Shown piece after piece: positions 27,533-42,373 of a stretch of DNA of 64,000 nt. This DNA is from Amycolatopsis lexingtonensis. GTDB taxonomy: Bacteria > Actinomycetota > Actinomycetes > Mycobacteriales > Pseudonocardiaceae. A program made the position numbers and the translations under genes. The notes beneath the pieces are model-generated. The model ran no database searches. It saw nothing but the letters and a program-made list of their open reading frames with translations, and was not told where the DNA came from. The stretch is taken from NCBI RefSeq assembly GCF_014873755.1, contig NZ_JADBEG010000001.1, forward strand, positions 10,175,001-10,239,000. The letters are read 5' to 3'. Every line of letters begins with the position of its first letter. Position 1 is the stretch's first letter.

Positions 27533-29377
27533 TCAGCTCTGCAGGTCGTACACCGTCTGGCCGTCGACCGTGGTGGCGGTGAAGTTCGCCGTCACCCAAT
27601 CCGTGATCTCCGACGAACCACCGCCGGGCCCACCACCCCGGCCTCCTTCGACGTAGTACTTGATCTCGCCCGCCGCCACGTACGCCTTGAACTCGTCCAG
27701 CGTCGGCGCCGGGTCCGAGCCGCTCCAGCCGCCGATCCCGATCACCGCCTTGCCGCTGGCCAGTTCCAACGACGCCGCGCTCTGCGAACCCGTCGTCGCC
27801 GCGGCCCACTTGGTCGTCGTCTTGGCCAGCAGCGAACCGATCGCGCTCGACGACGAATCCTCACCACCGAAACCACCGCCGGCGCCGAAGCCGCTCGACG
27901 TCGGGCCGGACGTCGGGATCGAGCCGCTGTGGGCCACCGACGCCGTCTCGACGCCGTACGCCGCGGACGACACCCCGATGGTCAGGACCAGCACCGCCGC
28001 CACTACGGCGACCAGCCGGCGAGCCGCGGGCACGCCCATCACCAGCACCGTGCCGGTCAGTACGCCCAGCACCGCGACGATCCACTTCAGCGCCGGGAAC
28101 CAGTCCGGCGTCCGGTCCAGCAGGATGAACGACCACACCGCCGTCGCCACGACCATCCCGGCCAGCGTCGCCCGCGGCGCGAGATTTCCCCGGCCCTGCC
28201 ACAGCGCACGGCCCGAAATCGCGACCAGCCCGGCGATCGCCGGCGCGAGCGCCACCGAGTAGTACGGGTGGACCGTGCCGCTCATGAAGCTGAACACCAG
28301 CGCCGTCACGACCAGCCAGCCGCCCCACAGGACCAGCGCCAGCCGGGTGCGGTCGGTGCGGGGCGCGCGGCGGGTGAACCACAGCCCGGCGACCAGCCCG
28401 ATCAGCGCGGCGGGCAGCAGCCAGGAGATCTCCGTGCCGAAGCTGGCGCCGAACATCCGGAACAGGCCGGTCGACCCGCCGAACCCGGTGTTGCCGCCCA
28501 TGCCACCACCGCCCATGCCGCCGTTGCCCTCGCCGCCGAAGATACGACCCAAACCGTTGTAGCCCAACGCGAGTTCGAGCAGACTGTCCCCTTCGGACCC
28601 GCCGATGTAGGGCCGCGACGACGCCGGCCACAGCTCGACCAGCGCGACGAACCAGCCCGCCGAAACGACCAGCGAGACGACCGCGCCGCCGAGGTGCAGC
28701 AGCCGCTTGCCCAGCGACGCCGGTGCCGCGAGCAGGTACGCCAGCCCGAACGCCGGCAGCACCAGGAACGCCTGCATCATCTTCGTCAGGAAGCCGAACC
28801 CGATCGCGGCACCGGCCAGCGCGAGCCACCCCGGGCTCGCCTTTTCCGTGGCGCGCACGACGAAGTACGCACCCGCGACCATGATCAGGACGAGCAGCGC
28901 GTCCGGGTTGTTGAACCGGAACATCAGCGCCGCCACCGGCGTCACCGCGAGCACCGCGCCCGCCAGCAGCCCGGCGACCGGGCCGGCGGTCCGCTTCACC
29001 GTCAGGTACAGGATCCCGACCGAAGCGACACCCATAAGCGCTTGCGGCGCCAGCACGGTGAAGCTCGAGAACCCGAAGATCCGCGCGAACGCCGTGCCGA
29101 CCCACAACGCGGCCGGCGGCTTGTCGACGGTCAGGACGTTGCCCGAGTCGAGCGACCCGAACAGCCACGCCTTCCAGCTCTGCGTCCCGGACTGCACGGC
29201 CGCCGCGTAGAACGAGTTGCCGTAACCGGACGCGGTCAGGTTCCAGAAGTAGAGGACGGCGGTCGCGGCCAGCAGCCCGAACACCGCCGGCCGGACCCAG
29301 CGCGGCGGCGCGTGCGCCACGGAATCCCTGCGGTGGCGCGGTTCCCGCGTCACGGGACCGGACAGGACGGCGGTCAT
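27533..29377 (-). CDS. ArnT-like membrane glycosyltransferase (GT39/PMT-like), copy 1
   Basis: A 614-residue protein with about twelve membrane segments and an ArnT/PMT-type catalytic loop (YAAAVQSGTQSWKAWLFGS, then VDKPPAALW). It ends with a glycine/serine-rich linker and an extracytoplasmic C-terminal domain of about 110 residues (IGIGGWSGSDPAPTLDEFKAYVAAGEIKYYVEGG). It should transfer sugars from a polyprenyl-phosphate donor on the outer face of the membrane. The start overlaps the stop of the upstream GT2-GtrA gene (ATGA), so a donor-making enzyme and a transferase form one operon. It is a paralogue of the gene at 36129-37997. Confidence 0.9.
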   Translation of the reverse strand: MTAVLSGPVTREPRHRRDSVAHAPPRWVRPAVFGLLAATAVLYFWNLTASGYGNSFYAAAVQSGTQSWKAWLFGSLDSGNVLTVDKPPAALWVGTAFARIFGFSSFTVLAPQALMGVASVGILYLTVKRTAGPVAGLLAGAVLAVTPVAALMFRFNNPDALLVLIMVAGAYFVVRATEKASPGWLALAGAAIGFGFLTKMMQAFLVLPAFGLAYLLAAPASLGKRLLHLGGAVVSLVVSAGWFVALVELWPASSRPYIGGSEGDSLLELALGYNGLGRIFGGEGNGGMGGGGMGGNTGFGGSTGLFRMFGASFGTEISWLLPAALIGLVAGLWFTRRAPRTDRTRLALVLWGGWLVVTALVFSFMSGTVHPYYSVALAPAIAGLVAISGRALWQGRGNLAPRATLAGMVVATAVWSFILLDRTPDWFPALKWIVAVLGVLTGTVLVMGVPAARRLVAVVAAVLVLTIGVSSAAYGVETASVAHSGSIPTSGPTSSGFGAGGGFGGEDSSSSAIGSLLAKTTTKWAAATTGSQSAASLELASGKAVIGIGGWSGSDPAPTLDEFKAYVAAGEIKYYVEGGRGGGPGGGSSEITDWVTANFTATTVDGQTVYDLQS

Positions 29378-30630
29378 CAGAACTCCTTCTGGGTGGCCTG
29401 GCGGCGCGGGTTGAAGACCCAGCCGCGCAGGAGCAGGAAGCGGAGCACCGTGGCGGCGAGGTTCGCCAGCACGAGCACGGTGATCTCCAGGACGAGGCCG
29501 GGCGTGGTGGACCCGTTGAGCAGGGCCAGCGAGCCGCTCGTGAGCGCCAGGCCGAGGCCGAACACGATCAGCCCTTCGAACTGGTGCCGCCCGGCGCCGG
29601 TGCGGCCGCGGATGCCGAACGTGAGCCGCCGGTTCAGCGCGGTGTTCCCGATCGCCGTCACCAGCAGCGACGCGAAGTTCGCCGCCTGCGCGCCGACGAC
29701 GGTCCGCAGCAGCAGGAACAGCACGAGGTAGGCGAGCGTGCTGCTGACGCCGATCGCGGCGAACCGCACCAGCTGCGTGACCAGCCGCGGCGGCACCCCC
29801 GGCGCGTCGACGCCGATCGGCTGGCGGCCGAGCTGCTCGCGCAGCTTGCTGACCGGGATCTCGCCGGTGAAAGTGGCCTTCGTGACGCGGGCGATGCCCT
29901 TGAGGTCCTCGGTGGCGGTCTTGACGATGTTGACCGACGAGTCCGGGTCGTCGACCCAGTCGACCGGCACCTCGTGGATCCGCAGCCCGGCGCGCTGCGC
30001 CAGGACGAGCAGTTCGGTGTCGAAGAACCACCCGGTGTCCACCACGTGCGGGAGCAGCTCGCGGGCGACGTCAGCGCGGATCGCCTTGAACCCGCACTGC
30101 GCGTCGCTGAACTTCGCGGCCAGCGTCGAGCGGAGGATCAGGTTGTAGCACCGGGAAATGAACTCGCGCTTCGGCCCGCGCACCACTCGCGCCCCCCGGG
30201 CGAGCCTGCTGCCGATGGCGAGATCCGAATGCCCGGACAGCAGGGGCGCGACGAGCGGCCCGAGCGCGGCGAGATCGGTGGAGAGGTCGACGTCCATGTA
30301 GGCGAGGACAGCGGCGTCGGACGCTCGCCAGACGGCGTTGAGCGCGCGGCCGCGGCCCTTCTCGTCGAGGTGGTGGACGGCCACCTCGGGGAACTCGCGG
30401 GCCAGTCTTTCCGCCACCTGCAGCGTCGCGTCGGTGCTCGCGTTGTCGGCGACGGTGATCCGGTAGGGGTAGGAGACGTGTTCGGCCAGGTGCGCGTGCA
30501 GCCGTCGGATGCACGGTTCGAGGTCGGCCTCTTCGTTGTAGACCGGGATGACGACGTCGAGAACGGGCCGCGGGCCGGCCAGGTCGACCGGGACGGTCCC
30601 GGGCCGCGGTGCGGGGGCGGTGGCTGTCAT
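29377..30630 (-). CDS. Fused GT2 polyprenol-phosphate glycosyltransferase and GtrA-like protein
   Basis: A 417-residue protein. The N-terminal part (about 20-260) is a dolichol-phosphate-mannose-synthase-like GT2 with VVIPVYNEE, ADNASTD and MDVDLSTD. The C-terminal part (about 285-410) is a four-helix GtrA membrane domain (RFAAIGVSSTLAYLVLFLLL). It should make or flip a polyprenyl-phosphate sugar for the ArnT-like enzyme encoded by the overlapping next gene. Three CACA units at 11-bp spacing lie 35 bases upstream. Confidence 0.92.
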   Translation of the reverse strand: MTATAPAPRPGTVPVDLAGPRPVLDVVIPVYNEEADLEPCIRRLHAHLAEHVSYPYRITVADNASTDATLQVAERLAREFPEVAVHHLDEKGRGRALNAVWRASDAAVLAYMDVDLSTDLAALGPLVAPLLSGHSDLAIGSRLARGARVVRGPKREFISRCYNLILRSTLAAKFSDAQCGFKAIRADVARELLPHVVDTGWFFDTELLVLAQRAGLRIHEVPVDWVDDPDSSVNIVKTATEDLKGIARVTKATFTGEIPVSKLREQLGRQPIGVDAPGVPPRLVTQLVRFAAIGVSSTLAYLVLFLLLRTVVGAQAANFASLLVTAIGNTALNRRLTFGIRGRTGAGRHQFEGLIVFGLGLALTSGSLALLNGSTTPGLVLEITVLVLANLAATVLRFLLLRGWVFNPRRQATQKEF

Positions 30631-30653
30631 GCCCCTACGGTCGCGGGTGCCGC

Positions 30654-30692
30654 TTTGGTGATCGTGTGATCTCTCTGTGCGGTAGCTGTGTG
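30654..30692 (-). promoter_or_regulatory. 11-bp phased CACA direct repeats, site A
   Basis: On the plus strand TGTG occurs at 30665, 30676 and 30687 (a weak TTTG at 30654), exactly 11 bp apart. On the minus strand this reads CACAG/CACAC repeats directed at the GT2-GtrA start at 30630, with the nearest full unit 35 bases from it. Such 11-bp direct repeats are the hallmark of OmpR/PhoB-type response-regulator binding. Confidence 0.65.
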
Positions 30693-30733
30693 CCGCGCCC
30701 GGTGCCCGAGACGCGGGACACCGGGCGCAGTGC

Positions 30734-31240
30734 TCAGCTGTGGGCGCGCAGCGGCACGACGTTGCTCGGCAGGGAAGCCCGGCCCGGCTCGCGCTTCGGC
30801 GCGTCCGCGCTGATCGTGAGCGTCACCAGGCTCGCGTACCGCGGGTGCCGGTCGACGTAGACCTCCGGCACCGAGCACGCCGCCGCCAGGACCGAGCGGT
30901 GGCGGTGCAGGTGGTCGAAGGCCTCGCGCCCGTACAGCGACACGACGACGTCACCGCCGCGGGGACGGCTCCACAGGATGGTCGGCCGGCCGCCGGGCAG
31001 GCGCAGGTGCGGGAACACCGCACGCAGCCGGTGCTGCAGCGCCACCGCCTTGAACCGGGCGCGGACCTGGCGCCGGCGCAGCACCGCCCAGCCGAGCGTG
31101 CCGGCCAGGAGCAGCGACGCCCACAGCGGACCCGCCCACAGCGCGAAGGTCACGACGCCGTAGGGGAGCAGCGTGACGGCCAGGATCTCCCACCGCCAGT
31201 GGTAAATCCGCAGCGGGAACGATGGCTGCCTGCTGGTCAT
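30734..31240 (-). CDS. Hypothetical membrane protein, cyclase-Crp operon
   Basis: A 168-residue protein with two adjacent membrane helices (about 15-55; YHWRWEILAVTLLPYGVVTF then GPLWASLLLAGTLGWAV) and a basic cytoplasmic tail (RRRQVRARFKAVALQHRLR) followed by a compact domain of about 90 residues. I do not recognise the family; it resembles small membrane proteins of actinobacterial integrative elements only loosely. The ATG at 31240 follows AAAGGAG and is chosen. An in-frame ATG at 31354, overlapping the upstream stop (ATGA), would add 38 residues and is a real alternative. It is last gene of the operon. Confidence 0.65.
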   Translation of the reverse strand: MTSRQPSFPLRIYHWRWEILAVTLLPYGVVTFALWAGPLWASLLLAGTLGWAVLRRRQVRARFKAVALQHRLRAVFPHLRLPGGRPTILWSRPRGGDVVVSLYGREAFDHLHRHRSVLAAACSVPEVYVDRHPRYASLVTLTISADAPKREPGRASLPSNVVPLRAHS

Positions 31241-31350
31241 CTCCGTGCTCCTTTCGGTTGGCCGGCGGCGGAAAACGCCGCCGAGGTGCTTGAGGAGACG
31301 TCCGGCGCCGGTGGCGGCCACGATGGCCGCGACGATCGCCGGCGCGGACG

Positions 31351-31620
31351 TCATGTCGGGATCCGGGTCTTGGGGGCGGGCTGAACGTCCTTGTCCTTGC
31401 CGAGCCGCCAGGTCCACCGCCACCCCGCCCAGATCGCGGCGACGGATCCCATCAGGACGAGCACGACGGCCTGGCCGACGAGGCCTTCGAGCGGCGCGAG
31501 CCGCAGCAGCACCAGCAGTGCCCACAACTGGGACGCGGTGAACGGGATGACCAGCCCGGCGGCGTAGACGCCGCGGCGCCAGCGGCTGCCGCGCGGTGCG
31601 GCGGTGGTGTTGGGGTCCAT
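31351..31620 (-). CDS. Small two-helix membrane protein
   Basis: An 89-residue protein with two membrane segments (about 17-40, VYAAGLVIPFTASQLWALLVLL; about 48-68, AVVLVLMGSVAAIWAGWRW) and a lysine-rich cytoplasmic tail. The ATG at 31620 has an excellent GAGGAGGAGGG site. It lies 79 bases after the Crp/Fnr gene and overlaps the next possible start. No family is recognised. Its placement with a nucleotide cyclase and a cyclic-nucleotide-type regulator suggests a membrane effector or regulated transporter, which is inference. Confidence 0.65.
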   Translation of the reverse strand: MDPNTTAAPRGSRWRRGVYAAGLVIPFTASQLWALLVLLRLAPLEGLVGQAVVLVLMGSVAAIWAGWRWTWRLGKDKDVQPAPKTRIPT

Positions 31621-31672
31621 GAGTGCCCTCCTCCTCGGTGGATCCAGGAAACCTCCGGAATGCCGCGCCTTG

Positions 31673-31688
31673 TGTGTCAGGTGACTCA
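31673..31688. promoter_or_regulatory. Imperfect CRP-like inverted repeat
   Basis: TGTGTC-AGGT-GACTCA is an inverted repeat with one mismatch and matches 7 of 10 defined positions of the TGTGA-N6-TCACA consensus. It lies between the Crp/Fnr gene and the two membrane-protein genes, where a Crp-type regulator could act on its own operon. Confidence 0.35.
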
Positions 31689-31699
31689 GAAGGCGGGAT

Positions 31700-32365
31700 T
31701 CAGCTCGCAAGACGTCGAAGTTCGGCCAGGCGGTGGATCGTGACCTGTCTCCGGCCGGTGCTGATCACCCCTTGCCGCCGCAGGTCGCGCGTCGCGCGCG
31801 CCCAGGACTCCCGGGAGATCGCGGCGGTCATGGCCAGCTCGGCCTGGGTGGCCGGAACGGCGATTTCGATGTCCCGTCCGCGCGCCACGCCGTGCTGGAT
31901 CGCCAGCTGCATGAGCTGAGCGGCGACCCGCCGCGCGGTGGCCCCGCCCCCCACGTCCAGCCACTGCTTGCCGACGGACCGCAGCCGGGTGGAGAGGACG
32001 AGCAGAAGCGCCCAGGACATCCGCGACCGCGTCCGGCACAGTGTGGCGAACCGATCGCCGGGTACCTCGAGAATTTCGAGGTCTTCGAGTGCCTCCACCG
32101 TCGCCGACCGCGGCAGCTTGTCGATCGCGGCGAGCTCCCCGATGACATCCCCTGCCCCGCGCACCGCGGCGATGACCTCGCGTCCGTCCGGTGTGCCGTA
32201 GAGGATCCGCGCGTGCCCGGCGAGGAGCACGAGCACGACGTTCGAGCGGTCGCCTTCCCGGCACAAAGTGTCGCCGTGCCGGTAGGAGCGCCGCGTGGCC
32301 GCCTCCGCCAGCGCCCGCTGGTCGGCCGGGGTCAGCCCGGCCCAGAAGCTCGTCGGTTCCACCAT
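31700..32365 (-). CDS. Crp/Fnr-family transcriptional regulator
   Basis: A 221-residue protein with an N-terminal cyclic-nucleotide-binding beta-roll (about 10-115) that keeps the phosphate-binding cassette GELAAIDKLPRSATV (Glu and Arg-Ser of the ligand site). A dimer helix and a C-terminal winged helix follow (about 165-215; QAELAMTAAISRESWARATRDL). Ligand binding is therefore plausible, unlike Fnr types that use an iron-sulfur cluster (no cysteine cluster present). The ATG at 32365 is placed correctly after AAGGAGG. It lies 19 bases after the cyclase-like gene, so the two are probably a signal-and-receiver pair. Confidence 0.9.
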   Translation of the reverse strand: MVEPTSFWAGLTPADQRALAEAATRRSYRHGDTLCREGDRSNVVLVLLAGHARILYGTPDGREVIAAVRGAGDVIGELAAIDKLPRSATVEALEDLEILEVPGDRFATLCRTRSRMSWALLLVLSTRLRSVGKQWLDVGGGATARRVAAQLMQLAIQHGVARGRDIEIAVPATQAELAMTAAISRESWARATRDLRRQGVISTGRRQVTIHRLAELRRLAS

Positions 32366-32384
32366 CCCCACCTCCTTCGCGGTC

Positions 32385-33002
32385 CTAAGCGGTCAGACCT
32401 TCTCCGTCCTGGGTCGCTTCTGGGGTGTGGAACCACCCGCGGAGCCGTTGAGCACCGACTTTGACGTGCACCACTTGGATGAAGTCGTCCTGGTGGATGC
32501 CCGGGTAGCCGTGCCGGACGACCGACCGGTGCATCTCCGCCGAAACGACGAGCGCGATGGGCTGGGCGCTGATACGCAGCCGACGCTTGAGCTCGGGGGC
32601 GTCGACGAACCGGCAGGCGATGTCGATGTCCTCTCCGTAGGGTCCGCGAGAGTCGTAGTGCACCTCTCCGGCGTGTACGGCGACGCGCAGCCGGAAGGCC
32701 AGATCCGGCCGGTTCTCGGCGTGCTTTTCGAGGAGTTCGGACAGCGCGGGCATGACGGTGGCGAACAGGACGGGCTTGGGTGCCTGGTCGACCGGGCGGA
32801 TCAGGCAGAGCGCGCCATCGCCGCGGTCGACGAATCCGTCGCGGTACTTCTTGGTGATCCCGCCGGCCAGGAAGGCCTCGTCGAGCAACTCGAAGAGGGC
32901 GGTGCGGAGCTGAGCTCGAGCCGGGTTGGTCCGCGTCGTCGAGCCTTCGATGTCGACCGCCACGATGATCCGGTACCGGGGTATGTCGCCTGAGCTGTCC
33001 AT
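32385..33002 (-). CDS. Class III nucleotide cyclase-like protein
   Basis: A 205-residue, single-domain soluble protein. Class III cyclase landmarks are the first metal Asp in VAVDIEGST, the second in DRGDGALCL, and RVAVHAGEVHYD; the transition-state region reads GEDIDIACRF, with Asp where many cyclases have Asn. Cyclic nucleotide formation is plausible but activity and base choice cannot be told from sequence. Pyrimidine cyclases of Pycsar defence are also small class III enzymes. It is first gene of an operon with Crp/Fnr and two membrane proteins; AGGAG precedes its ATG. Confidence 0.75.
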   Translation of the reverse strand: MDSSGDIPRYRIIVAVDIEGSTTRTNPARAQLRTALFELLDEAFLAGGITKKYRDGFVDRGDGALCLIRPVDQAPKPVLFATVMPALSELLEKHAENRPDLAFRLRVAVHAGEVHYDSRGPYGEDIDIACRFVDAPELKRRLRISAQPIALVVSAEMHRSVVRHGYPGIHQDDFIQVVHVKVGAQRLRGWFHTPEATQDGEGLTA

Positions 33003-33024
33003 GGCCGGCTCCTGCCTTCAGGTA

Positions 33025-33040
33025 TGAACTGAAGTTCAGT
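33025..33040. promoter_or_regulatory. Palindrome in the cyclase promoter region
   Basis: Overlapping symmetric elements TGAACTGAAGTTCA (33025-33038) and ACTGAAGTTCAGT (33028-33040) lie 22 bases ahead of the cyclase start. A TTGACT hexamer on the minus strand (33038-33043) overlaps the edge and could be a -35 element. It is a likely repressor site in the 236-base divergent region, which otherwise holds only the XRE-gene leader. Confidence 0.55.
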
Positions 33041-33238
33041 CAACTTCACTGTAGGACCTGAGATGGTCTGGAGCAACGGACGTGGATTGCTGTTACTTGT
33101 TTGATGTCAGCCATTTTGATAGGTCGTAACGTGGCTGTAGGCCAACCCGGCGAGGCGGCGCAGCGTTTCCCGTCGAGGGGGAGTAGTATCAGCGCACCCG
33201 TTTGCAGGGCTGAAATTTACTGAAAGGGTGGCGAGGTT

Positions 33239-34297
33239 GTGTCCCCGATCGCGCCCCGACCCGCGCTCGCCCGTCGATTGAGGGCGCTGCGGGAGACGCA
33301 CTGGCCGGAAGCCGGCATCACCCAGGCGCAGCTCGCCGACGCACTCGGCGCCGGCAGGCCGCTAAGCGTCTCCCTAATCTCGTCGTGGGAGAACGCCGAC
33401 AAACCCGTCCGCCCGCCCGCTCGGCGGCTCGAGGCGTACGCGACGCTGTTCGCGACACGGCGCTCCCTCGACGGTGGGCGTGTTCAGGTCCTGTCTCTCG
33501 AAGAGCTGACGGACGAAGAGCGCGTCCAGCGGAAGGAGCTGCTCGCCGAGCTGCTGTGGCTTCGTGACGGCATCGAGACAGAGGCCGAGACAGTGGCCGA
33601 CCTCTGGACCTTCCCCAAGGGGCAGGACGTCACCATAGTTTGCGCGCCGTTCCCGGAGAAGTTCCGGAAGTCTCTTCCCTACACGGACCCGGACAGCGCT
33701 GACTTCGTCTCCCTGTACACGTACGCCGACCCGGATGCCTTGATCGAACTGTTCGGCCACATCCGTGCGCGGAACCCCGGTAACAAAGTCACGTTCCACA
33801 CCGCCGACGAGCTGACCACGGATGACTACACCACCCACTTGATCTTGCTCGGGGGTGTCGATTGGAACTCCGTGACCCGCGATGTGATCGAGCGGGTCGA
33901 GTTGCCGGTGGCTCAAGTCGGTCGGCAGGCGGACGCAGAACACGGCGGGTTCCTGGTCAAGGAGAACGGCCGGGAGCGGCTCATCGAGCCCCAGCTCGAT
34001 GAGAACGGTCACCTGCTGGAAGACGTCGCGCACTTCTACCGAGGGGTGAGTCCGTTCAACCGGAAGCGCACTGTGACCGTGTGCAATGGCATGTACGGGC
34101 GCGGGACGCTGGGTGCGGTCAGAGCACTCACCGACGAACGCTTCCGGGACCGCAACGAGTCGTACGTCCGAGGACGGTTCGGCGACGACGAGCTGTTCAG
34201 CATCATCAGCCGCGTCCTCGTCGTGGACGGCAAGGGACTGACGCCCGACTGGAGCATCGACGAGTACCGCCTACACGAATGGCCCGAAGCTGGATGA
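33239..34297 (+). CDS. XRE-type HTH protein with an uncharacterised C-terminal sensor domain
   Basis: A 352-residue protein. An N-terminal HTH (about 8-70; ITQAQLADALGAG, SLISSWENADKPVRPP) is joined to a C-terminal domain of about 230 residues with alternating strands and helices (DVTIVCAPFPEKFRKSLPY, THLILLGGVDWNSVTRDVI, RTVTVCNGMYGRGTLGAVRA), suggestive of a Rossmann-like nucleotide- or ligand-binding fold. I cannot name this domain. The GTG at 33239 has GAGG upstream. Its stop overlaps the glycosyltransferase-like gene (ATGA), so the two products probably work together. Confidence 0.8.
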   Translation: MSPIAPRPALARRLRALRETHWPEAGITQAQLADALGAGRPLSVSLISSWENADKPVRPPARRLEAYATLFATRRSLDGGRVQVLSLEELTDEERVQRKELLAELLWLRDGIETEAETVADLWTFPKGQDVTIVCAPFPEKFRKSLPYTDPDSADFVSLYTYADPDALIELFGHIRARNPGNKVTFHTADELTTDDYTTHLILLGGVDWNSVTRDVIERVELPVAQVGRQADAEHGGFLVKENGRERLIEPQLDENGHLLEDVAHFYRGVSPFNRKRTVTVCNGMYGRGTLGAVRALTDERFRDRNESYVRGRFGDDELFSIISRVLVVDGKGLTPDWSIDEYRLHEWPEAG

Positions 34298-35472
34298 ACG
34301 CCCGGCAGCATCAGTCGCACCAAGATCTGCTGACCCACGTCGAAGCGGTCGAGGCACCCTCTGCCGCGCTGGACGCGATCATCGTGCCCAACGGGCGGCC
34401 CCCGGCGTATCTCGCCGAGGCGATCGCGGCGGCTCGGAAGCTCGATGTGCCGTTGCTGTTGTTGTGCAGCAAGCGGGCCAGTGCTTCGAGCGCGGCTCTG
34501 GAGGCGAAGCGGTCCGGCGCCCGGGTGCGGGCCATCGACGTGGATCTGCTTCCCGAACCGCTCGTCCCGACGTTCAGCACCGACAAGCTGCTCCGCGCCG
34601 GCCGGTTCCACCGGCCGGTCGACACCAGTCTCAAACGGAACCTCGGCCTGCTCATCGCGATCGTTGCCGGATGGCGTCGTGTCCTCTTCCTCGACGACGA
34701 CATCGTCCTGCCCGATCCCGGCGATCTCGACGCCGCGGCCGGACTGCTCGCCAGGCATCCGGTCGTCGGGCTCGCGAACGCCGGTATGCCGGACAACTCG
34801 GTCGTCTGCCACGCACTTCGCGATGTCGGCGCAGCCCAGGACACGTTCATCGGCGGCGGTGCGCTGGTCGTCGGCGAAGCCGCGTTCGACTCGTTCTTCC
34901 CCAACATCTACAACGAAGACTGGTTCTTCCTCTTGGACGGCCTGACCCTGCGGTCGCCGGCGGTTGTGGGTTCGGCGATCCAGCACCCTTACGACCCGTA
35001 CCGCGACGCCTCGCGAGCCCGTGGTGAAGAATTGGGCGACACGCTCGCCGAAGGCGTCTACGCGCTGCTGGACAACGGGTTGGGACTACCTGACGCCGAT
35101 GAAGGCTATTGGCGCGAGTTCCTCCCCGCCCGGCGGGAAGTAATCATGACGACCATCAGGCGGGTCCAGTCGGCGGCGATCGAACCCGGGCAGAAGGCGC
35201 GGATGATCGCCTCCCTCAAAGCCGCGATCGGACGCAACCACCACATCACGCCGGAGTTGTGTGTGCGGTACCTGCGTGCCTGGCAGGCGGACACCGTGCG
35301 CTGGCGCCGGCACGTCGGCGACCTCCGCAGGGACCACCGCTCGGGTTTTGGCGTCGATCACGCCTTGGCCGCGCTGGGTGTCGCACACCTCGCTCAGCCC
35401 GGTGTCGACGGCCGGATCGGCACTACGCCGAAACGCCGGCCGTCGCGGCCCCGTGCGGCGATGCGGACTTGA
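34294..35472 (+). CDS. Glycosyltransferase-like protein coupled to the HTH sensor gene
   Basis: A 392-residue soluble protein with a GT2-like nucleotide-sugar fold: an N-terminal AIIVPNGRPPAYLAEAIAAA strand-helix, the acidic metal motif VLFLDDDIVLP (about residue 130), and a conserved YNEDWFFL segment (about 210). The C-terminal half is helical and basic. Neither acceptor nor donor can be told. It is translationally coupled to the HTH gene and its last 50 bases overlap the convergent acetyltransferase gene. Membership of a two-gene unit with a cytoplasmic sensor is unusual for a cell-envelope GT. Confidence 0.72.
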   Translation: MNARQHQSHQDLLTHVEAVEAPSAALDAIIVPNGRPPAYLAEAIAAARKLDVPLLLLCSKRASASSAALEAKRSGARVRAIDVDLLPEPLVPTFSTDKLLRAGRFHRPVDTSLKRNLGLLIAIVAGWRRVLFLDDDIVLPDPGDLDAAAGLLARHPVVGLANAGMPDNSVVCHALRDVGAAQDTFIGGGALVVGEAAFDSFFPNIYNEDWFFLLDGLTLRSPAVVGSAIQHPYDPYRDASRARGEELGDTLAEGVYALLDNGLGLPDADEGYWREFLPARREVIMTTIRRVQSAAIEPGQKARMIASLKAAIGRNHHITPELCVRYLRAWQADTVRWRRHVGDLRRDHRSGFGVDHALAALGVAHLAQPGVDGRIGTTPKRRPSRPRAAMRT

Positions 35473-35968
35473 GGTCCTTCACTAGCACGTGGCACTTCTC
35501 CGGCTCGCGGACGACGCTGCCGTCCGGCTGGACCTCGTAGGTGTAGCAAACGATCTTGCCGCCACCCCAGTCCCGATAGCCGAGCCGGTCGTACAGCGCG
35601 GCGGCGCGGGTGTTGTCCTCGTGGACCGCCAGCGCGACCTGTTCGTGGCCGCCAAGGTCTTCGAGGTAGCGCTCGGCGTGGTCCATCAACTCGGTGCCGA
35701 CGCCCTTGCTGCGCAGCGGCGGCAGGACTTCCAGATGGGTGAGCAGTGCGACGCCCGGCAATGCCGCGGCGATCTCCTGCTCCTCGGCCTCTTCGAGCCA
35801 GAGGTAGAGCAGCCCGGCCGGGACGTCGCCGGACCACGCTGTGAACAGCACGCCGAGACCGTTCGTCTGCCGGTTCAGCCGGTCCTCGAGGAAGTGCCGG
35901 TCGCCGAACTTTTCGCTGAGCAGCTCGATGTCGTCGCGCCGGACCGGTCGCACGAGGTATCGACTCAC
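35423..35968 (-). CDS. GNAT-family N-acetyltransferase
   Basis: A 181-residue acetyltransferase with the acetyl-CoA loop VLPPLRSKGVGTELM (R/QxxGxG/A type), a preceding strand ALLTHLEV and the late motif ALYDRLGYRDWG. The substrate is unknown. The 3' end overlaps the convergent glycosyltransferase-like gene by 50 bases; both frames look real, so the overlap is probably genuine. Confidence 0.85.
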   Translation of the reverse strand: MSRYLVRPVRRDDIELLSEKFGDRHFLEDRLNRQTNGLGVLFTAWSGDVPAGLLYLWLEEAEEQEIAAALPGVALLTHLEVLPPLRSKGVGTELMDHAERYLEDLGGHEQVALAVHEDNTRAAALYDRLGYRDWGGGKIVCYTYEVQPDGSVVREPEKCHVLVKDLKSASPHGAATAGVSA

Positions 35969-36044
35969 CGTTGGGGACTCCTGTCGTTTCGGGCGCCAGC
36001 CGTGCGCCCGCAGAACATATCCCGGCCCGGTCGAGAATCTGGCG

Positions 36045-36065
36045 TTCTCCGCTGGTCGCGGAGAA
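36045..36065 (-). terminator. Hairpin after the second ArnT-like gene
   Basis: Eight-base perfect arms (36045-36052, 36058-36065) with a 5-base loop lie 64 bases beyond the minus-strand stop of the ArnT-like gene. There is no strong T-run; terminator role is inferred from position. Confidence 0.5.
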
Positions 36066-36128
36066 GGCCGGAGTTTGCCACGGGCGATCGGAGATATCCA
36101 GTCCGCGGGGCATCGGTTACCGGATTGT

Positions 36129-37997
36129 TCAGCCGATCGAGATCAGGTCGTAGACGGTAACCCCATCCACGGTGGATGCTTTGTAGTTTTCGGCCACCCA
36201 TTCGGCGATCTGCTGGGCCGCGTCCGAGCCGCTGCTGCCCTGCATCGTCATGCCTTCACCGAGGAAGTAGTGGATCCGGCCATCAGCCACGTACTGCTGG
36301 AACTGAGCCAGCGTCGGGTACGGGTCGGTCCCGTTGAACCCACCCACCGCCATCACCGGCGCTCCGCTGGCCAACTGGTACCCGGCGGCGGCGTTCGACA
36401 ACACCGTCGCCGCGGTCCACGTGTACTGGGACGCGTCCTTCTGCAGCAACGCCGTCAGTGAAGCGCCCGGCATGGTCGTGCTCAGCAGCGACCCCGGCCC
36501 GCCGCCACGACCGCCGCCGGCGAAGCCGCCTGGGCCGCGGCCGCCGAAGCCGGATGACGGGCCTGCCGACGGGATTGCGCCGCTGTGCGTCACCGACGCT
36601 GTGGCCAGGGTGTACGCGCCGGTGCCCGACAAAGTCACCACGAGGGCCAGGACGGCGACCGCGGTAGCCGCCCAGCGGGTCAAGTGGGCCGCGAAGAACA
36701 GGGCCGCCGCGGCCAGCAGGCCGCCCACCAGGATCGTCGGGGCCAGCCACGGCTGCCACGTCGAGCCCGACAGCACCAGGTACGCCGTCAGCGCCGTCAG
36801 AGCCACGCCGCCGCTCAACAGGCCCGAGGCCGCCGGGTTCGAACGCAGGCGCCACAGCTGGACCGCCGCCGTGCCGACGAGCGCCGCGATCGGCGGGGCC
36901 AGTGCCACCGTGTAGTACGGGTGGATGATGCCGCCCATGTAGCTGAACACCAGCGCCGTCACCACGAGCCAGCCGCCCCACAGGAGCAGCGCCGCGCGGG
37001 AGCGGTCCGTGCGCGGGGCGCGGCGGGTGAACCACAGACCCGCGCCCAGTGCCAGGAGCGCCGCCGGCAGCAGCCACGCGATGCCGCCCGCCATCTCGCT
37101 GCCGAAGAGCCTGGTCAGGCCGGTCGAACCCCAGCCGCGGCCCGCGCCGCCGCCTACGCTGCCGACCTCGTCGCCCGTGATGCGGCCGAAGCCGTTGTAG
37201 CCGAAGACCAGCTCCCACAACGAGTTCGTCTGGGAGCCGCCGATGAACGGGCGGTCCGCAGCCGGCCACAGGGCGACCACCAAGAGGTACCAGCCCGCGG
37301 CGGCCACCGTCGAGACGAACGCGCCCAGCAGGTGCAGCAGCCGCTTGCCGAGCGGCACCGGCGCCGCGATCAGGTAGGCCAGCGCGAACGCCGGGAGCAC
37401 GAGGAACGCCTGCAGCATCTTCGCCAGGAACCCGAACCCGACCGCCACGCCCGCCAGCGCGAGCCAGCGCGGGCTCGCCTTCTCGCCGGCGCGGACCACG
37501 CAGTACGCGGCCGCGACCAGGAGCAGCACCAGCAGCGCGTCCGGGTTGTTGAAGCGGAACATCAGCGCGGCGGCCGGGGTCAGGGCCAGCACGAGCCCGG
37601 CGACCAGGCCCGCGGCCGGGCCGGACGTCCGGCGGACCGTCGCGTACAGCAGCCACACCGAACCGACGCCCATCAGCGCCTGCGGCACCAGGACGCTCCA
37701 CGCGTTGACGCCGAACAGCCGCGCCGACAGGCCCATCACCCACAGCGCGGCCGGGGTCTTGTCGACCGTGATCGCGTTCGCCGCGTCGCTGGAGCCGAAG
37801 AACAGCGCCTTCCAGCTCTGCGAACCCGCCTGGGCGGCCGCCGAGTAGAAGGCGTTGGCCCAGCCCGACGCGCCGAGGCCCCACAGGTACAGCACCGCCG
37901 TGCCGAGCAGGAGGACGGCCAAAGCCGGGCGGTGCCAGGTGGGGCGTGCGGGAACAGAAGGGGTCACGACGGTTTCGCGTGACGCGAGTGCGGTCAT
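36129..37997 (-). CDS. ArnT-like membrane glycosyltransferase, copy 2
   Basis: A 622-residue paralogue of the gene at 27533-29377. It has the same twelve-helix plan, the catalytic loop YSAAAQAGSQSWKALFFGS followed by VDKTPAALW, and the C-terminal extracytoplasmic domain ending in STVDGVTVYDL (copy 1: TTVDGQTVYDL). It should glycosylate an unknown envelope acceptor from a polyprenyl-linked donor. The gene starts 4 bases after the histidine-kinase stop, so they are co-transcribed. A three-unit CACAG array sits 35 bases upstream, inside the kinase 3' end. Confidence 0.9.
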   Translation of the reverse strand: MTALASRETVVTPSVPARPTWHRPALAVLLLGTAVLYLWGLGASGWANAFYSAAAQAGSQSWKALFFGSSDAANAITVDKTPAALWVMGLSARLFGVNAWSVLVPQALMGVGSVWLLYATVRRTSGPAAGLVAGLVLALTPAAALMFRFNNPDALLVLLLVAAAYCVVRAGEKASPRWLALAGVAVGFGFLAKMLQAFLVLPAFALAYLIAAPVPLGKRLLHLLGAFVSTVAAAGWYLLVVALWPAADRPFIGGSQTNSLWELVFGYNGFGRITGDEVGSVGGGAGRGWGSTGLTRLFGSEMAGGIAWLLPAALLALGAGLWFTRRAPRTDRSRAALLLWGGWLVVTALVFSYMGGIIHPYYTVALAPPIAALVGTAAVQLWRLRSNPAASGLLSGGVALTALTAYLVLSGSTWQPWLAPTILVGGLLAAAALFFAAHLTRWAATAVAVLALVVTLSGTGAYTLATASVTHSGAIPSAGPSSGFGGRGPGGFAGGGRGGGPGSLLSTTMPGASLTALLQKDASQYTWTAATVLSNAAAGYQLASGAPVMAVGGFNGTDPYPTLAQFQQYVADGRIHYFLGEGMTMQGSSGSDAAQQIAEWVAENYKASTVDGVTVYDLISIG

Positions 37998-38001
37998 GGG
38001 A

Positions 38002-39537
38002 TCAGCTTCCGGTGCCGAGCTGGGGCCGGGTTGTGCCGATGCTGTGCGCTCGCTGTGCGGGCACGGCCACCGGCAGGCGCACCGCGAACTCGGTCCGTCC
38101 GGGACGGCTGTGCACCTCGATGGTGCCGTCGTGGGCGAGCACGACGGCGGCCGCGATCGCCATGCCGAGCCCGGTGCTGCCGGCGGTGCGGGAACGCGAC
38201 GAGTCGCCGCGCGCGAACCGTTCGAAGACCTCCGGGAGCAGGTCCGGGTCGATGCCGGGGCCGTCGTCGGTCACCGTGAGCACCGCGCTGCCGTCAGCCG
38301 AGCGGGCCAGCGTCGTCACCACCGTGGTGCCGGGCGGCGTGTGCGTGCGCGCGTTGGCCAGCAGGTTCGCCAGCACCTGGTGCAGGCGCTGGACGTCGCC
38401 GTGCACCAGGACCGGGTCCGGGGGCAGCTCCAGGAGCCAGCGGTGGCCGCGGCCGGCGACCTGGGCGTCGCCGACCGCGTCGGCGACCAGGCGGGTGAGA
38501 TCGACGTCGCGGACGTCGAGCGGGCGGCCCGCGTCGAGCCGGGCGAGCAGGAGGAGGTCCTCGACGAGCGCCGACATCCGGACGGCCTCGGACTGGATGC
38601 GGCCCATCGAATGGGCCACGTCGGGCGGCACCAGCGCGCTGCCGCGGGCGGCCAGCTCGGCGTACCCGCGGATCGCGGCCAGCGGCGTCCGCAGCTCGTG
38701 GCTGGCGTCCGCGACGAACTGCCGGGCGCGGATCTCGCTGCCGTGCCGGGCTTCGAGGGCCTGTGCGACGTGGCCGAGCATGAGGTTGAGCGCCGAGCCG
38801 ACCTGCCCCACCTCGGTGCGCGGGTCGGTGTCGGACTCCGGGACGCGGATGGACAGCGCCACCTGGCCGCGGTCGAGCGGCAGCTCGGTGACGCGCCCGG
38901 CGGTGGCCGCGACACGGTCGAGGGGGCGCAGCGTGCGGCGGACCGCGAACGCGCCGAGGAAGGCCGCGCCGAGGACGCCCGCGGCCGCGACGCCGAACAG
39001 GATCAGCCCGACGGTGACCAGCGTGGCGGTGACCGGCGCCAGCGGCAGGCCGGTGACGACGACTTCGCCGGTGCCGGTGACCGGCAGCGCCATCAGCCGG
39101 TACTCGCCGAGGTCGTCGAGGGACACCGTGTGCGGCTTGCCGTCGGCGGGCACCGAGAGCAGGACGGCCTGCTGGGCCGCCGTCAGCTGCAGGCGCTCGC
39201 CGTGCTCGGAGATGCTGTCGTCGTGGACGAGGCGCCGTCCGTCGAAGGTGCCGCTCACCGTGCCGACGTTCTGCCCGAGCGGGTGCTGACCCTGGTCGCC
39301 GGGCAGCGGGCCGGCGTCCGGCGGGCGGGCGTTGCTCGCGAAGACGAGGGAGCGGGTCGCCGCGGCGGACAGCTGCTGGTCGACCTGGCGGGTGAGGAAG
39401 AGGTTCAGCGCGAACTCGCTGACGACGCCGACGATCAGGCACACCACGGTGAGCAGCACGACCATCGACCCGGTCAGCTTCGCGCGCAGCGAAAGCCGCC
39501 CCCGGCGGGGGCGTGACGAGACGGTTCGCGCGGCCAT
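38002..39537 (-). CDS. Sensor histidine kinase without an adjacent response regulator
   Basis: A 511-residue membrane kinase. Two membrane helices (about 22-45 and 172-200) flank an extracytoplasmic domain of about 125 residues, followed by HAMP, HisKA (phospho-His in FVADASHELRTPLAAIRGYAEL, about 272) and HATPase (NLLANARTHTPPG, DDGPGI, STGLGMAI). Kinases of this type normally follow an OmpR-class regulator gene, but upstream here is a divergent membrane-protein gene, so the partner is elsewhere. It is co-transcribed with the ArnT-like gene. Four TGTG units at 11-bp spacing lie in its promoter. Confidence 0.93.
   Translation of the reverse strand: MAARTVSSRPRRGRLSLRAKLTGSMVVLLTVVCLIVGVVSEFALNLFLTRQVDQQLSAAATRSLVFASNARPPDAGPLPGDQGQHPLGQNVGTVSGTFDGRRLVHDDSISEHGERLQLTAAQQAVLLSVPADGKPHTVSLDDLGEYRLMALPVTGTGEVVVTGLPLAPVTATLVTVGLILFGVAAAGVLGAAFLGAFAVRRTLRPLDRVAATAGRVTELPLDRGQVALSIRVPESDTDPRTEVGQVGSALNLMLGHVAQALEARHGSEIRARQFVADASHELRTPLAAIRGYAELAARGSALVPPDVAHSMGRIQSEAVRMSALVEDLLLLARLDAGRPLDVRDVDLTRLVADAVGDAQVAGRGHRWLLELPPDPVLVHGDVQRLHQVLANLLANARTHTPPGTTVVTTLARSADGSAVLTVTDDGPGIDPDLLPEVFERFARGDSSRSRTAGSTGLGMAIAAAVVLAHDGTIEVHSRPGRTEFAVRLPVAVPAQRAHSIGTTRPQLGTGS
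38032..38064 (-). promoter_or_regulatory. 11-bp phased CACAG direct repeats, site B
   Basis: Plus-strand TGTG at 38032, 38043 and 38054 gives minus-strand units CACAGCGAGCG, CACAGCATCGG and CACAACCCGGC, each 11 bases. The array lies within the histidine-kinase coding end, and its nearest unit is 35 bases from the ArnT-like start, the same distance as at site A. It may drive extra ArnT transcription within the operon. Confidence 0.6.
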
Positions 39538-39560
39538 GGGTTCAGCGTCCGGCCGGGCCG

Positions 39561-39604
39561 TGTGTGCGGGTTGTGTGCTGCCTGTGAGGCGGCTGTGCGG
39601 TGGA
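39561..39604 (-). promoter_or_regulatory. 11-bp phased CACAG direct repeats, site C
   Basis: Plus-strand TGTG at 39561, 39572, 39583 and 39594 forms four contiguous 11-base units directed at the histidine-kinase start at 39537. Minus-strand units include CACAGCCGCCT and CACAGGCAGCA. The second unit is 35 bases from the start, repeating the spacing of sites A and B. Confidence 0.7.
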
Positions 39605-39625
39605 TGGCGCCCGATCCCCGCCGGT

Positions 39626-39669
39626 CACAGGAACGGCTGACGGCGGGCACAGTCCGCGCACAGCGACGG
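39626..39669 (+). promoter_or_regulatory. 11-bp phased CACAG direct repeats, site D
   Basis: CACAG occurs at 39626, 39648 and 39659, spaced 22 and 11 bases, with a degenerate CTGAC at the missing position 39637. The units face the plus-strand gene at 39716 and mirror site C across a 22-base gap. Together sites C and D make a symmetric eight-unit array between the divergent genes. Confidence 0.65.
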
Positions 39670-39715
39670 GCTCCACCGTGGATCGCACCGAAGGATCTCG
39701 TTAAGGAGCACCACC

Positions 39716-40270
39716 ATGACCACACCGCAGGCACCGTCCACACCGGACCAGACGTGGGGCGCGGCGCCCGCACCGGGCACGCCGCCGCGGGCGAGCTGGT
39801 CCCCGGGCAAGAAGATCGCGGCGGGCGCCGTCGCGGCCGTGATCGTGGCCGGCGGGGGCGCGGCGGTCTGGGCCGCTTCGTCGTCGGCGTCGACCGACAC
39901 GGCCACGGGTCCCGGCGGGATGAACGGCGGCCCCGGGAGCATGATGGGCGGCCCGGGCGGTGGCTTGGGGTCGGCGTTGCACGGGGAGTACGTGTCCTCC
40001 GACGGGAACGGCGGCTACGTCACGAAGATCATGCAGACGGGCGAGGTGACGGAGCTGAGCGCGACGTCGCTGACGGCGAAGAGCGACGACGGCTTCTCGA
40101 AGACGTACACGATCACGTCGGCGCAGGCGACGGGCCTGGCGACCGGGGACACGATCACGGTGGTGGCGACGGAGTCGGGCGACACGGCCACGGCGACGTC
40201 GGTGACGGAAGGCCAGACGGGCGCCCAGCCGGGCGGCGGCCAGGGAACCCCGCCCACCCAAACCGGCTGA
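39716..40270 (+). CDS. Membrane-anchored DUF5666-like protein
   Basis: A 184-residue protein with a short cytoplasmic proline-rich start, one membrane helix (about 32-55; KIAAGAVAAVIVAGGGAAVWA), a Gly/Met-rich linker and an extracytoplasmic beta domain (about 105-165; GEVTELSATSLTAKSDDGF) resembling DUF5666. ATG follows TTAAGGAG. It is divergent from the histidine kinase and shares its CACAG array, so it is probably controlled by the same signal; it might be the sensed or responding envelope component, which is inference. Confidence 0.75.
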   Translation: MTTPQAPSTPDQTWGAAPAPGTPPRASWSPGKKIAAGAVAAVIVAGGGAAVWAASSSASTDTATGPGGMNGGPGSMMGGPGGGLGSALHGEYVSSDGNGGYVTKIMQTGEVTELSATSLTAKSDDGFSKTYTITSAQATGLATGDTITVVATESGDTATATSVTEGQTGAQPGGGQGTPPTQTG

Positions 40271-40291
40271 CGGCGTGGCGGCCCCCGGAGG

Positions 40292-42373
40292 TCAGCGGCG
40301 GTCGTAGTCGACCGCGACCTCCGGGGTCGTCGCCCGGGCCCGGCACGTCAGGATCCGGCCCGCCGCCGCGTCGTCCTCCGTCAGCGCGTAGCGGACGTCC
40401 ATGTCGACCTGCCCGTGCAGGAGCGTCGCCTGGCACGTGCCGCACGCGCCGCCCTGGCAGGAGTACGGGACCTCGAAGCCCACGCGCAGGGCCGCGTCCA
40501 GGATCGTTTCGCCCGCGGCGGCCGGGACGGACGTCGTCGTGCCGCCCAGGGTCACCGCCACCGTGGCCGCCGGCCCCGCTGGGTCGCGCAGCGGTGCCGC
40601 GCCGCGGAACAGTTCGAAGTGGACGCTCTCCTCCGGGACGTCCGCGTCCGCCAGCGTGCGGCGGGCCATGTCCGTGAGGCCGCGCGGCCCGCACAGGAAC
40701 CACTCGTCGACCTTCGCCGGGTGGAGGCGGTTCTGCAGGAGGGCGCGCAGCCGGGTGCCGTCGAGGCGGCCGCGCTGGTAGCGCTCGTGGGAAATGGCCA
40801 GCGCCTCGCCGACCACGTCGAACTGGCGGGGCCGGTGCGCGTGCAGGTCCGGGTCGCGCTCGTCGGTGCGGTAGTGCACGACGTGCAGGCGGCCGCCGAA
40901 ACCCTCGGCCAGCGCGGTCAGCTCCTTGGCGAACAGCGTCGTCGCACCCGAGGTGTTCACGTACAGCAGCGTCGCCCTGCTGTGCGGCTCCGCCGACAGC
41001 GTGCTGACCAGGATCGACAGCACCGGCGTGATCCCGCTGCCCGCGGCCAGCGCCACGTAGTGCGCGGTCCGCGCCGGGTCCGGGGTGTGCGTGAACCCGC
41101 CCGACGGCGGCAGGACGTCGAGGAAGTCGCCCTCCGCCAGCGCCGTCGTCGCGTGGCTCGAGAACGCGCCGCCCGGGCGGCGCTTCACCGCGATGCGCAG
41201 CTCCCCGGACTCCGCCGGCGCGCAGATCGAGTACGTCCGCCGCACCGGCTGCCCGTCGAGCACCGCGCGGACCGCCACGTGCTGGCCGGGGGTGAACCGG
41301 AACTCCTCCTTGAGCTGTGGCGGGACGTAGAACGTGATCGCGACGGCGTCCGCGGTCAGCGGCCGGATCTCGCGCACCCGCAGCCGGTGGAAGCGGCTCG
41401 GCCCGAGCGCCGGGGGTGCCGGGGCCGGTTCGCCGCCGAGGTCGCACGTCAGCCGCCGCCACGCGCGGTACTCCGCCGCGGTCAGCTCGCGGCCCCACGC
41501 CGTGGTGATCGGGACGTCGCGGGCCAGGTACGCGTCCCGGTTGTCCTTCCACGCCCGCAGGTAGCGGTAGAACGGCACGGCGGGATGAAGATGGTGGACC
41601 AGGTGGTAGTTCTGGTACAGCATCATCGGCGTCATCAGCCACTCCAGCCCCACCCGCACCCGCGTGGTGCCGAACTTGTCGCGGGGCTTCGCGGCGGGCA
41701 GCCCATGGTGCGGCAGCCAGTCGAACCACCACGCCAGCACGGCCAGCCCGAGCCGCTGCGGCAGCACATAGCCCAGCAGCAGCTCGACGCCATAGCCGTC
41801 GGCGATCAGCGTCGCGGCCGCGGCGAACGCCAGCGACAGCACGACGATCGTCTCCGCGCGCTCCTGCGGCGGGCGGGTCCGGACGCGGGCGGTGTAGAAC
41901 CGCGCGTACCAGAAGTCGATGGTCAGCCACCGGAACGGCAGCGACCACCATGCACCCTGGGACGTCCACGCGTCCGGGTCGGTGCGCGAGTCCGCGTTGG
42001 TGTTGCGGTGGTGTTCGCTGTGGATGAACCGCAGCAGCGGGAACGACGAGTAGGCGGCGACGAACGGCATCGCGAGCCGGCCGAGCACCTCGTTGACCCA
42101 CGTCAGCTTCCCGGCCGCGTGGTGCGCCGACTCGTGCACCACGGTGAACATCGTGAAGGTGACGACCGCGTGCAGCGGCACGGTGACCACCGGCGGCGCG
42201 ATCCCGCCCAGCAGCAGCCAGGTCGCGGTGATCCACAGCGTGACGCCGCCGGCGAACAGCAGGAGCGTCGGCACCGACGCGCGGGGGAGCGGGATGCGGG
42301 GCGAACGCACCGCGCGGGACGGCACCGGCGACGACGTCCCGGTGCCGCGCGGCGGGGTCTCGACGACGGGCAT
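40292..42373 (-). CDS. Fatty-acid-desaturase / ferredoxin reductase / [2Fe-2S] ferredoxin fusion
   Basis: A 693-residue protein. Residues about 35-320 form a membrane desaturase/hydroxylase with His boxes H80ESAHH, H118SEHH and YHLVHHLHP. Residues about 325-580 are an FAD/NAD(P) reductase (RRTYSICAP, GSGITPVLSI, FLCGPRGL). The last roughly 90 residues are a plant-type ferredoxin with CQGGACGTC and a fourth Cys in ILTCRA. Electrons can thus flow from NAD(P)H to the di-iron site within one chain. In mycobacteria the equivalent desaturase and reductase are separate proteins. It is divergent from a TetR gene. Substrate is uncertain; lipids or carotenoids are possible. Confidence 0.9.
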   Translation of the reverse strand: MPVVETPPRGTGTSSPVPSRAVRSPRIPLPRASVPTLLLFAGGVTLWITATWLLLGGIAPPVVTVPLHAVVTFTMFTVVHESAHHAAGKLTWVNEVLGRLAMPFVAAYSSFPLLRFIHSEHHRNTNADSRTDPDAWTSQGAWWSLPFRWLTIDFWYARFYTARVRTRPPQERAETIVVLSLAFAAAATLIADGYGVELLLGYVLPQRLGLAVLAWWFDWLPHHGLPAAKPRDKFGTTRVRVGLEWLMTPMMLYQNYHLVHHLHPAVPFYRYLRAWKDNRDAYLARDVPITTAWGRELTAAEYRAWRRLTCDLGGEPAPAPPALGPSRFHRLRVREIRPLTADAVAITFYVPPQLKEEFRFTPGQHVAVRAVLDGQPVRRTYSICAPAESGELRIAVKRRPGGAFSSHATTALAEGDFLDVLPPSGGFTHTPDPARTAHYVALAAGSGITPVLSILVSTLSAEPHSRATLLYVNTSGATTLFAKELTALAEGFGGRLHVVHYRTDERDPDLHAHRPRQFDVVGEALAISHERYQRGRLDGTRLRALLQNRLHPAKVDEWFLCGPRGLTDMARRTLADADVPEESVHFELFRGAAPLRDPAGPAATVAVTLGGTTTSVPAAAGETILDAALRVGFEVPYSCQGGACGTCQATLLHGQVDMDVRYALTEDDAAAGRILTCRARATTPEVAVDYDRR

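Follow-up and report, generated by a model that had tools for sequence, protein, structure and literature searches.

CACAG direct-repeat arrays of Amycolatopsis lexingtonensis are probable operators of a distantly encoded PhoP-like regulator

RESULTS

Four phased arrays in a glycosylation locus

We examined a 64,000-nucleotide stretch of the Amycolatopsis lexingtonensis genome, hereafter the window (positions 10175001–10239000 of a single 10.74-Mb contig), in which four arrays of CACAG-like direct repeats precede genes for a GT2-GtrA fusion glycosyltransferase, the ArnT-like glycosyltransferase ArnTb, an orphan sensor histidine kinase, and a small divergent membrane protein. A single regulator protein, whose gene lies ~2.4 million bases away, very probably docks at these arrays. 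Judging from sequence, we are confident in reading them as operators of a PhoP-like response regulator (RR) of the OmpR/PhoB class at contig positions 7808492–7809241, with the window as its second branch; the stretch looks like the regulator-less second branch of a widely conserved cell-envelope control circuit.

The four arrays are genuine, correctly located, and non-random. A search for CACA-N7-CACA-N7-CACA gave four matches in the window, corresponding to arrays A, B, and C (the four-unit array C is counted twice), and zero matches in each of 100 dinucleotide shuffles. When one skipped slot was allowed, all four arrays (A–D) were recovered, compared with a mean of 0.01 and a maximum of 1 in 100 shuffles. 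Array A (30647–30690, minus strand), upstream of the GT2-GtrA gene, has four 11-bp slots reading CACAG, CACAG, CACAC, and a degenerate CAAAG, with intact units spanning 30665–30690. Array B (38014–38057, minus strand; intact units 38032–38057) lies within the 3′ end of the kinase gene and reads CACAG, CACAG, CACAA, and a degenerate CCCAG. Array C, upstream of the kinase (39554–39597, minus strand; 39561–39597 by direct reading), carries four CACA units, CACAG, CACAG, CACAA, and CACAC. Array D, upstream of the divergent membrane protein (39626–39669, plus strand; 39626–39662 by direct reading), reads CACAG, a degenerate CTGAC, CACAG, and CACAG. The gap between the third unit and the ATG is 34 nt (35 by subtraction) in arrays A, B, and C; the fourth unit of array C lies 23 nt from its ATG, and array D lies 53 nt from its own.

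An earlier note on this DNA had described four CACA(G) arrays with an exact 11-base period, each facing the gene downstream of it and, for A, B, and C, 35 bases from the start codon, and direct reading and pattern searching reproduced its coordinates, orientations, and distances. In addition, A, B, and D each have four in-register slots, the additional ones being slot 4 of A, slot 4 of B, and slot 2 of D.

Genome-wide distribution and the candidate regulator

The whole contig was scanned with two patterns, a three-unit pattern and a gapped pattern (slots 1, 3, and 4, with slot 2 optional). The three-unit pattern gave 11 matches versus 2 for the reversed control: four in the window, three at the replication origin, one at 1424438, one at 7808432, and two overlapping at 7811030. 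The gapped pattern gave five matches versus one for its control, falling at the origin, both divergent genes, and both full four-unit arrays. Combined, the two patterns mark the origin and eight promoters, those of the RR, divergent gene c, ArnTc, divergent gene w, the orphan kinase, ArnTb, GT2-GtrA, and a dioxygenase-like gene. Seven of the eight non-origin promoters thus serve the RR, kinase, ArnT, GT2-GtrA, and divergent families, and the eighth serves an intradiol-dioxygenase-like gene (PF00775) whose product has a Tat-like signal, read by eye. This distribution supports the envelope-glycosylation regulon that the earlier note had proposed, and it is not the random scatter of arrays, unrelated to these families, that the note had named as grounds for abandoning the idea. 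What began as a repeat becomes a testable regulon, for which a candidate regulator, the precise geometry of the operator, and eight predicted promoters of a single genome can be named.

The dioxygenase-like gene is a non-glycosylation member of the set. Its array has a −10 element in the last-unit register, and the combination of array and intradiol-dioxygenase-like secreted gene is kept in three genomes of the genus (L012:7439-8390, L154:4968-5920, L155:4535-5494). In two genomes (L147, L148), a CACAG triplet precedes an acyltransferase-like membrane gene without an in-register −10.

The candidate regulator, P0002, is an OmpR-type RR with a PF00072 receiver and a PF00486 winged-helix Trans_reg_C domain, the domain pair of the OmpR/PhoB class, and is 99% identical to named Amycolatopsis proteins. 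A search with this protein found no RR match inside the window. A regulator of this class encoded elsewhere had been anticipated from the 11-bp repeat, and the candidate fits that expectation. At 7.81 Mb, a divergent small gene is followed by RR, kinase, and ArnT genes; arrays lie upstream of the divergent gene and of the RR and ArnT genes. The best PDB match of P0002 is Mycobacterium tuberculosis PhoP (263 bits). Equivalents of PhoP N212, E215, Y217, and Y220 and of the wing residue R237 are kept; across N212, V213, E215, S216, Y217, and Y220, P0002 has N, I, E, L, Y, and Y (4/6 identical).

Architecture of the predicted promoters

A set of 199 arrays from 97 genus and family loci, picked for having arrays or regulator orthologues, was aligned on unit 1. 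In 184 of the 199, an A stands at +49 and a T at +53 from unit 1 (next best offset, 26), positions that we take to be −11 and −7 of a primary-sigma −10 element. Allowing the last-intact-unit register too, which was added after the fact, raised the arrays with an in-register −10 to 191/199, only part of which are tied to a named gene; of the eight misses, six do not precede regulon genes and two are duplicated arrays in one genome. The earlier note had made its case depend on conserved spacing in orthologous promoters, and this expectation was supported. In a hold-out set of 70 named loci, the −10 rule holds in 53/63 arrays.

None of the 184 arrays has T at −12. TTGACA is matched at no more than three of six places in 198/199 arrays; a match of at least 4/6 was seen in 1/199 versus 14/199 with shuffled flanks, a comparison that is partly forced because the CACA units sit in the −35 place. 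The −35 position is taken up by the slots closest to the −10, presumably the class II activator layout, as for PhoB. With four 11-bp CACAG-N6 slots, one of them often degenerate, at a fixed distance from a −10 and no −35 hexamer, the arrays look like activator-dependent promoters.

Within the window, the predicted −10 elements are GACCGT for promoter A (30637–30642, minus strand), GAAGCT for B (38004–38009, minus strand), GACGCT for C (39544–39549, minus strand), and CACCGT for D (39674–39679, plus strand). The predicted +1 positions of A, B, and C (30630, 37997, and 39537) are each the A of the ATG. As the GT2-GtrA, ArnTb, and kinase genes begin at the predicted +1, their transcripts are probably leaderless. 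The predicted +1 of promoter D (39686) lies 30 nt before the ATG, which would give a leadered transcript. Across the larger sample, 123 of the 148 ungapped arrays have their first ATG or GTG, whatever the frame, at +60/+61, which corresponds to the predicted +1 or +2. The gapped class, mostly divergent genes, is probably leadered, since 28 of its 44 arrays have no ATG or GTG at +56 to +65. Searches for further members in other actinomycetes can draw on this rule: four slots without a −35, S at −12, A at −11, T at −7, and a start codon at +1.

We propose that the phosphorylated regulator would line up as tandem dimers on the 11-bp slots, where it would substitute for the missing −35 in class II activation and recruit RNA polymerase to a weak −10 (SANNNT), so that kinase, ArnTb, and GT2-GtrA transcripts would begin at their start codons. 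Because the array covers the −35 region, the same geometry might instead serve a repressor whose occupancy blocks the polymerase. We consider this unlikely, as promoters with neither a −35 nor a T at −12 would be expected to be nearly silent unaided, and a repressor would not need such weakness.

The promoter data also bear on whether the arrays are operators at all, rather than coding repeats, DnaA boxes, or RNA elements. Three of the genome matches do lie at the origin, and array B lies within coding sequence. This alternative is nevertheless scarcely credible: the in-register −10 found in 191/199 arrays was seen in 0/20 arrays elsewhere (origin included; six of these 20 also belong to the set of 199), and across 80 named loci CACA gave 88 arrays versus 0 or 1 for each of five other four-base words at the same spacing. 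A search of 30000–40500 against Rfam at the gathering threshold gave zero matches.

Conservation and co-occurrence with the regulator

Within the genus, three-unit matches were found in 39 of 40 genomes, with 352 in total (origin included) versus 54 for the reversed control. In the sole genome without a match (G011), the best RR is not above 54% identity. For the family, a set of 120 genomes was used, in which 154 pattern matches were found versus 34 for the control. Orthologues of the RR were called in 55 genomes (E ≤2.2e-116, identity ≥77%; paralogues E ≥5.6e-88), and a truncated hit in G093 was counted as present, giving 56. Arrays occur in 50 of the 56 family genomes with the RR versus 13 of the 64 without it (Fisher P = 5.8e-15).

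Named genomes were sampled as the best 80 RR loci among the matches listed. A three-unit array stands at 60 of these 80 loci, and 74 have either such an array or two or more CACAG units. The array-bearing loci include those of Streptomyces, Actinoplanes, Terrabacter, and Saccharothrix; at most Streptomyces loci, the three-unit array precedes only GT2-GtrA and not the RR. The order kinase, ArnTb, GT2-GtrA, ArnTa is contiguous in relatives L111, L113, L121, and L124. In genome G013 (L126), a single operon comprises the RR, kinase, ArnT, and GT2-GtrA genes; arrays stand upstream of three of these (RR, ArnT, and GT2-GtrA) and also of the divergent gene. In G019, the array of the regulator is duplicated, with the copies 66 bp apart (N between), and it occurs again ~2.9 Mb away (L132:4787-4878, L133:8284-8309).

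These data also address a reading in which the arrays are recognized by a different OmpR-family regulator, such as one of the three encoded at 8.10, 8.44, and 8.74 Mb, with the gene of the 7.81-Mb regulator merely among its targets. The genome has ~30 nearly full-length relatives of the regulator, and the three just named keep the PhoP N/E/Y/Y contacts. Against this, the 7.81-Mb regulator sits in an array-bearing locus, its orthologue tracks the arrays across the 120 genomes (co-occurrence covers this regulator alone), and the G013 operon combines RR, kinase, ArnT, and GT2-GtrA with arrays. We therefore regard a different reader as quite improbable.

Several points nonetheless count against assigning the arrays to the 7.81-Mb regulator, in addition to the selection of the 97 loci and the forced element of the −35 comparison. 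The N/E/Y/Y set is present in 4/30 regulators checked in this genome, P0002 included, and P0002 has V213 replaced by I and S216 by L. The slot pattern 1,2,_,4 fell outside the genome-wide scan. Among the family genomes, 13/64 that lack the regulator have a match, which in four cases lies no more than 2.5 kb from the start of a contig, and 6/56 that have it lack an array match; likewise, 20 of the best 80 named loci among the matches listed have no three-unit array. Ten of the 63 hold-out arrays break the −10 rule, and the hold-out loci are not independent, as many are closely related Streptomyces. Finally, autoregulation is not universal, because most Streptomyces arrays precede GT2-GtrA only.

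An orphan kinase and a duplicated branch

The window kinase (38002–39537, minus strand; HAMP, HisKA, and HATPase_c by Pfam) has no adjoining RR. It is 59% identical to the 7.81-Mb kinase (57% by blastp), and the next nearest kinase is at 41%. ArnTc shares 55% identity with ArnTb and 58% with ArnTa, and the divergent proteins of the two loci are 54% identical over 94 residues. As kinase, ArnT, and divergent proteins all match 7.81-Mb counterparts, the window locus is a paralogous set without an RR. In a tree, six orphan kinases (four from this genus and two from genus g26) form one clade (99/100) that lies within the group of array-system kinases. A further regulator-less, array-bearing kinase locus occurs in G046; the nearest relative of its kinase is the RR-linked kinase of the same genome (100/100), and it is apparently an independent duplication.

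We suggest that the window is a second branch of an operon with the order divergent OB protein, RR, kinase, ArnT, and GT2-GtrA, a branch in which a duplicated kinase–ArnT–GT2-GtrA–ArnT set would have retained its operators without the regulator gene. Because the window set retains operators but no regulator gene, two kinases probably feed one regulator, making the locus a clean natural example in which the kinase was duplicated and the regulator was not. The earlier note had cast the window kinase as the sensor of the regulon, but the regulator has its own neighboring kinase, so the window kinase is at most a second input.

H, N, and G boxes are present in the window kinase, and 51 of 66 positions in its DHp region are identical to the 7.81-Mb kinase, whose N-terminal part it matches at only 125/263 positions. 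Over the same 66 DHp positions, three other kinases reach 27, 37, and 38 identities. These values suggest a kinase that may phosphorylate the same regulator in response to a different signal. Alternatively, the arrays may be operators of the 7.81-Mb regulator, with the window kinase a mere target gene that signals elsewhere or acts as a phosphatase. The 15 differences in the DHp region and the divergence of the N-terminal part leave this less likely alternative some weight. Against it, none of the three other kinases compared comes as close in the DHp region as the 7.81-Mb kinase does, and G046 shows a second origin of an array-bearing kinase copy without a regulator.

Relationship to known regulators and glycosylation systems

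In the available portion of PMC4832192, M. tuberculosis PhoP is described as binding TCACAGC repeats with a strict 4-bp spacer, binding three or four repeats more tightly than two. The TCACAGC-N4-TCACAGC box shares with our system the CACAG core, the 11-bp period, tandem three- and four-unit sites, and an OmpR-class regulator; most recognition-helix contacts are kept, although three other regulators of this genome keep the N/E/Y/Y set too. TCACAGC-like tandem units with a 4-bp spacer are found here, in which the first T and last C vary and CACAG is constant. The PhoP targets given in the accessible part of PMC4038636 (mcr7, pks2, pks3, lipF, narK1) are not array-regulon genes here, and M. tuberculosis PhoP differs from P0002 in belonging to a separate regulator clade.

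P0002 was considered as a PhoP orthologue and rejected. Genome G161, from the same order, encodes two distinct proteins, one a PhoP almost the same as that of M. tuberculosis (459 bits) and the other an orthologue of P0002 (269 bits to PhoP), and the G161 PhoP falls in a clade that excludes P0002 (99/97, with long-branch warnings). As G161 carries both, P0002 is a paralogue of PhoP and not its orthologue. In G161 (probably mycobacterial), GT2-GtrA and ArnT-like genes come after PhoP-PhoR, and phoP itself has two TCACAG units upstream (L420:123-6073); the corresponding gene of G194 (L421) did not show this neighborhood. A sister PhoP-like clade in genomes without the arrays (L405-L413, e.g., L406 and L411; genomes such as G102 and G065) adjoins GT2/GT39 genes and has TTCCCAG-like upstream repeats, read by eye, which could mark a sister regulon with a changed box.

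The S. coelicolor PhoP PHO box (GTTCACC) likewise pairs an OmpR-class regulator with 11-bp direct repeats, with a different unit and a phosphate regulon, as far as the text available for PMC9019756 shows. The arrays were rejected as PHO boxes of this type, the constant core here being CACAG.

The box and the promoter class are already known. In the openly licensed literature searched, we found neither the regulon nor the leaderless layout with four slots, nor a duplicated branch that lacks the regulator. Tentatively, and with rather less than even confidence, we propose an unnamed envelope-glycosylation regulon across the actinobacteria, with a PhoP-like regulator, a four-slot operator before most genes, in places within the coding end of the gene ahead, and activator-dependent leaderless promoters. 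On at least two occasions its kinase would have undergone duplication while the regulator did not, which would yield branches with two sensors and one regulator, and M. tuberculosis PhoP would be a specialized paralogue keeping the ancestral glycosylation box. Such a scheme would connect polyprenol-linked glycosylation throughout the Actinobacteria with the mycobacterial PhoP box.

Two-component control of a GT2 and YkcB GT-C pair has a counterpart in Bacillus subtilis, where ykcBC belongs to the YclJ and YrkP regulons according to the portions available of PMC5836110 and PMC10128005. For YkcC, the part of PMC8035078 at hand lists the flippase partner as unknown; here GtrA is fused to GT2. The same partial source describes multi-component transmembrane glycosylation systems (GT-A + GtrA + GT-C; CsbB-GtcA-YfhO), which share GT2, GtrA, and a PMT-2/YkcB-like GT-C with our locus. 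The present system differs in its GT2-GtrA fusion in one protein and its actinobacterial host. In B. subtilis, lipid-linked sugar made without the GT-C partner activates SigM, which the available text of PMC11081497 reads as carrier-lipid trapping; as speculation, such trapping could explain an operator before each gene.

Genes of the window locus

The GT2-GtrA fusion glycosyltransferase (29377–30630, minus strand; Pfam PF00535 and PF04138) is, by family, a putative polyprenyl-phosphate sugar synthase with a flippase domain. The start of ArnTa, an ArnT-like GT39 glycosyltransferase (27533–29377, minus strand; PF13231 and PF24878, found on 27533–29488), overlaps the end of the GT2-GtrA gene, and ArnTa has no array of its own. 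ArnTb (36129–37997, minus strand; PF13231 and PF24878) is the other ArnT-like GT39 glycosyltransferase; both proteins are YkcB-like. GT-A, GtrA flippase, and GT-C parts are thus encoded together, contiguously in the four relatives named above, and the output would be a polyprenol-linked sugar moved to an envelope polymer or lipid. In this genome, ~5 kb of other genes (30734–35968), including a CRP-like regulator by eye, split ArnTb from GT2-GtrA.

The divergent small protein (39716–40270, plus strand) has one predicted N-terminal helix, of low confidence, followed by a Gly-rich linker and a C-terminal OB-like beta domain at approximately residues 89–165. Pfam and NCBIfam searches gave zero family matches. 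In the predicted structure, the beta domain is confident (block means of 92–97 over residues 91–160; whole-model mean 62.7), and structure comparison of the model shows a resemblance to OB folds. Beyond it, and without an array, lies a fatty-acid desaturase gene fused to a ferredoxin-reductase-like module (40292–42373), which is found near the orphan-kinase locus in many relatives.

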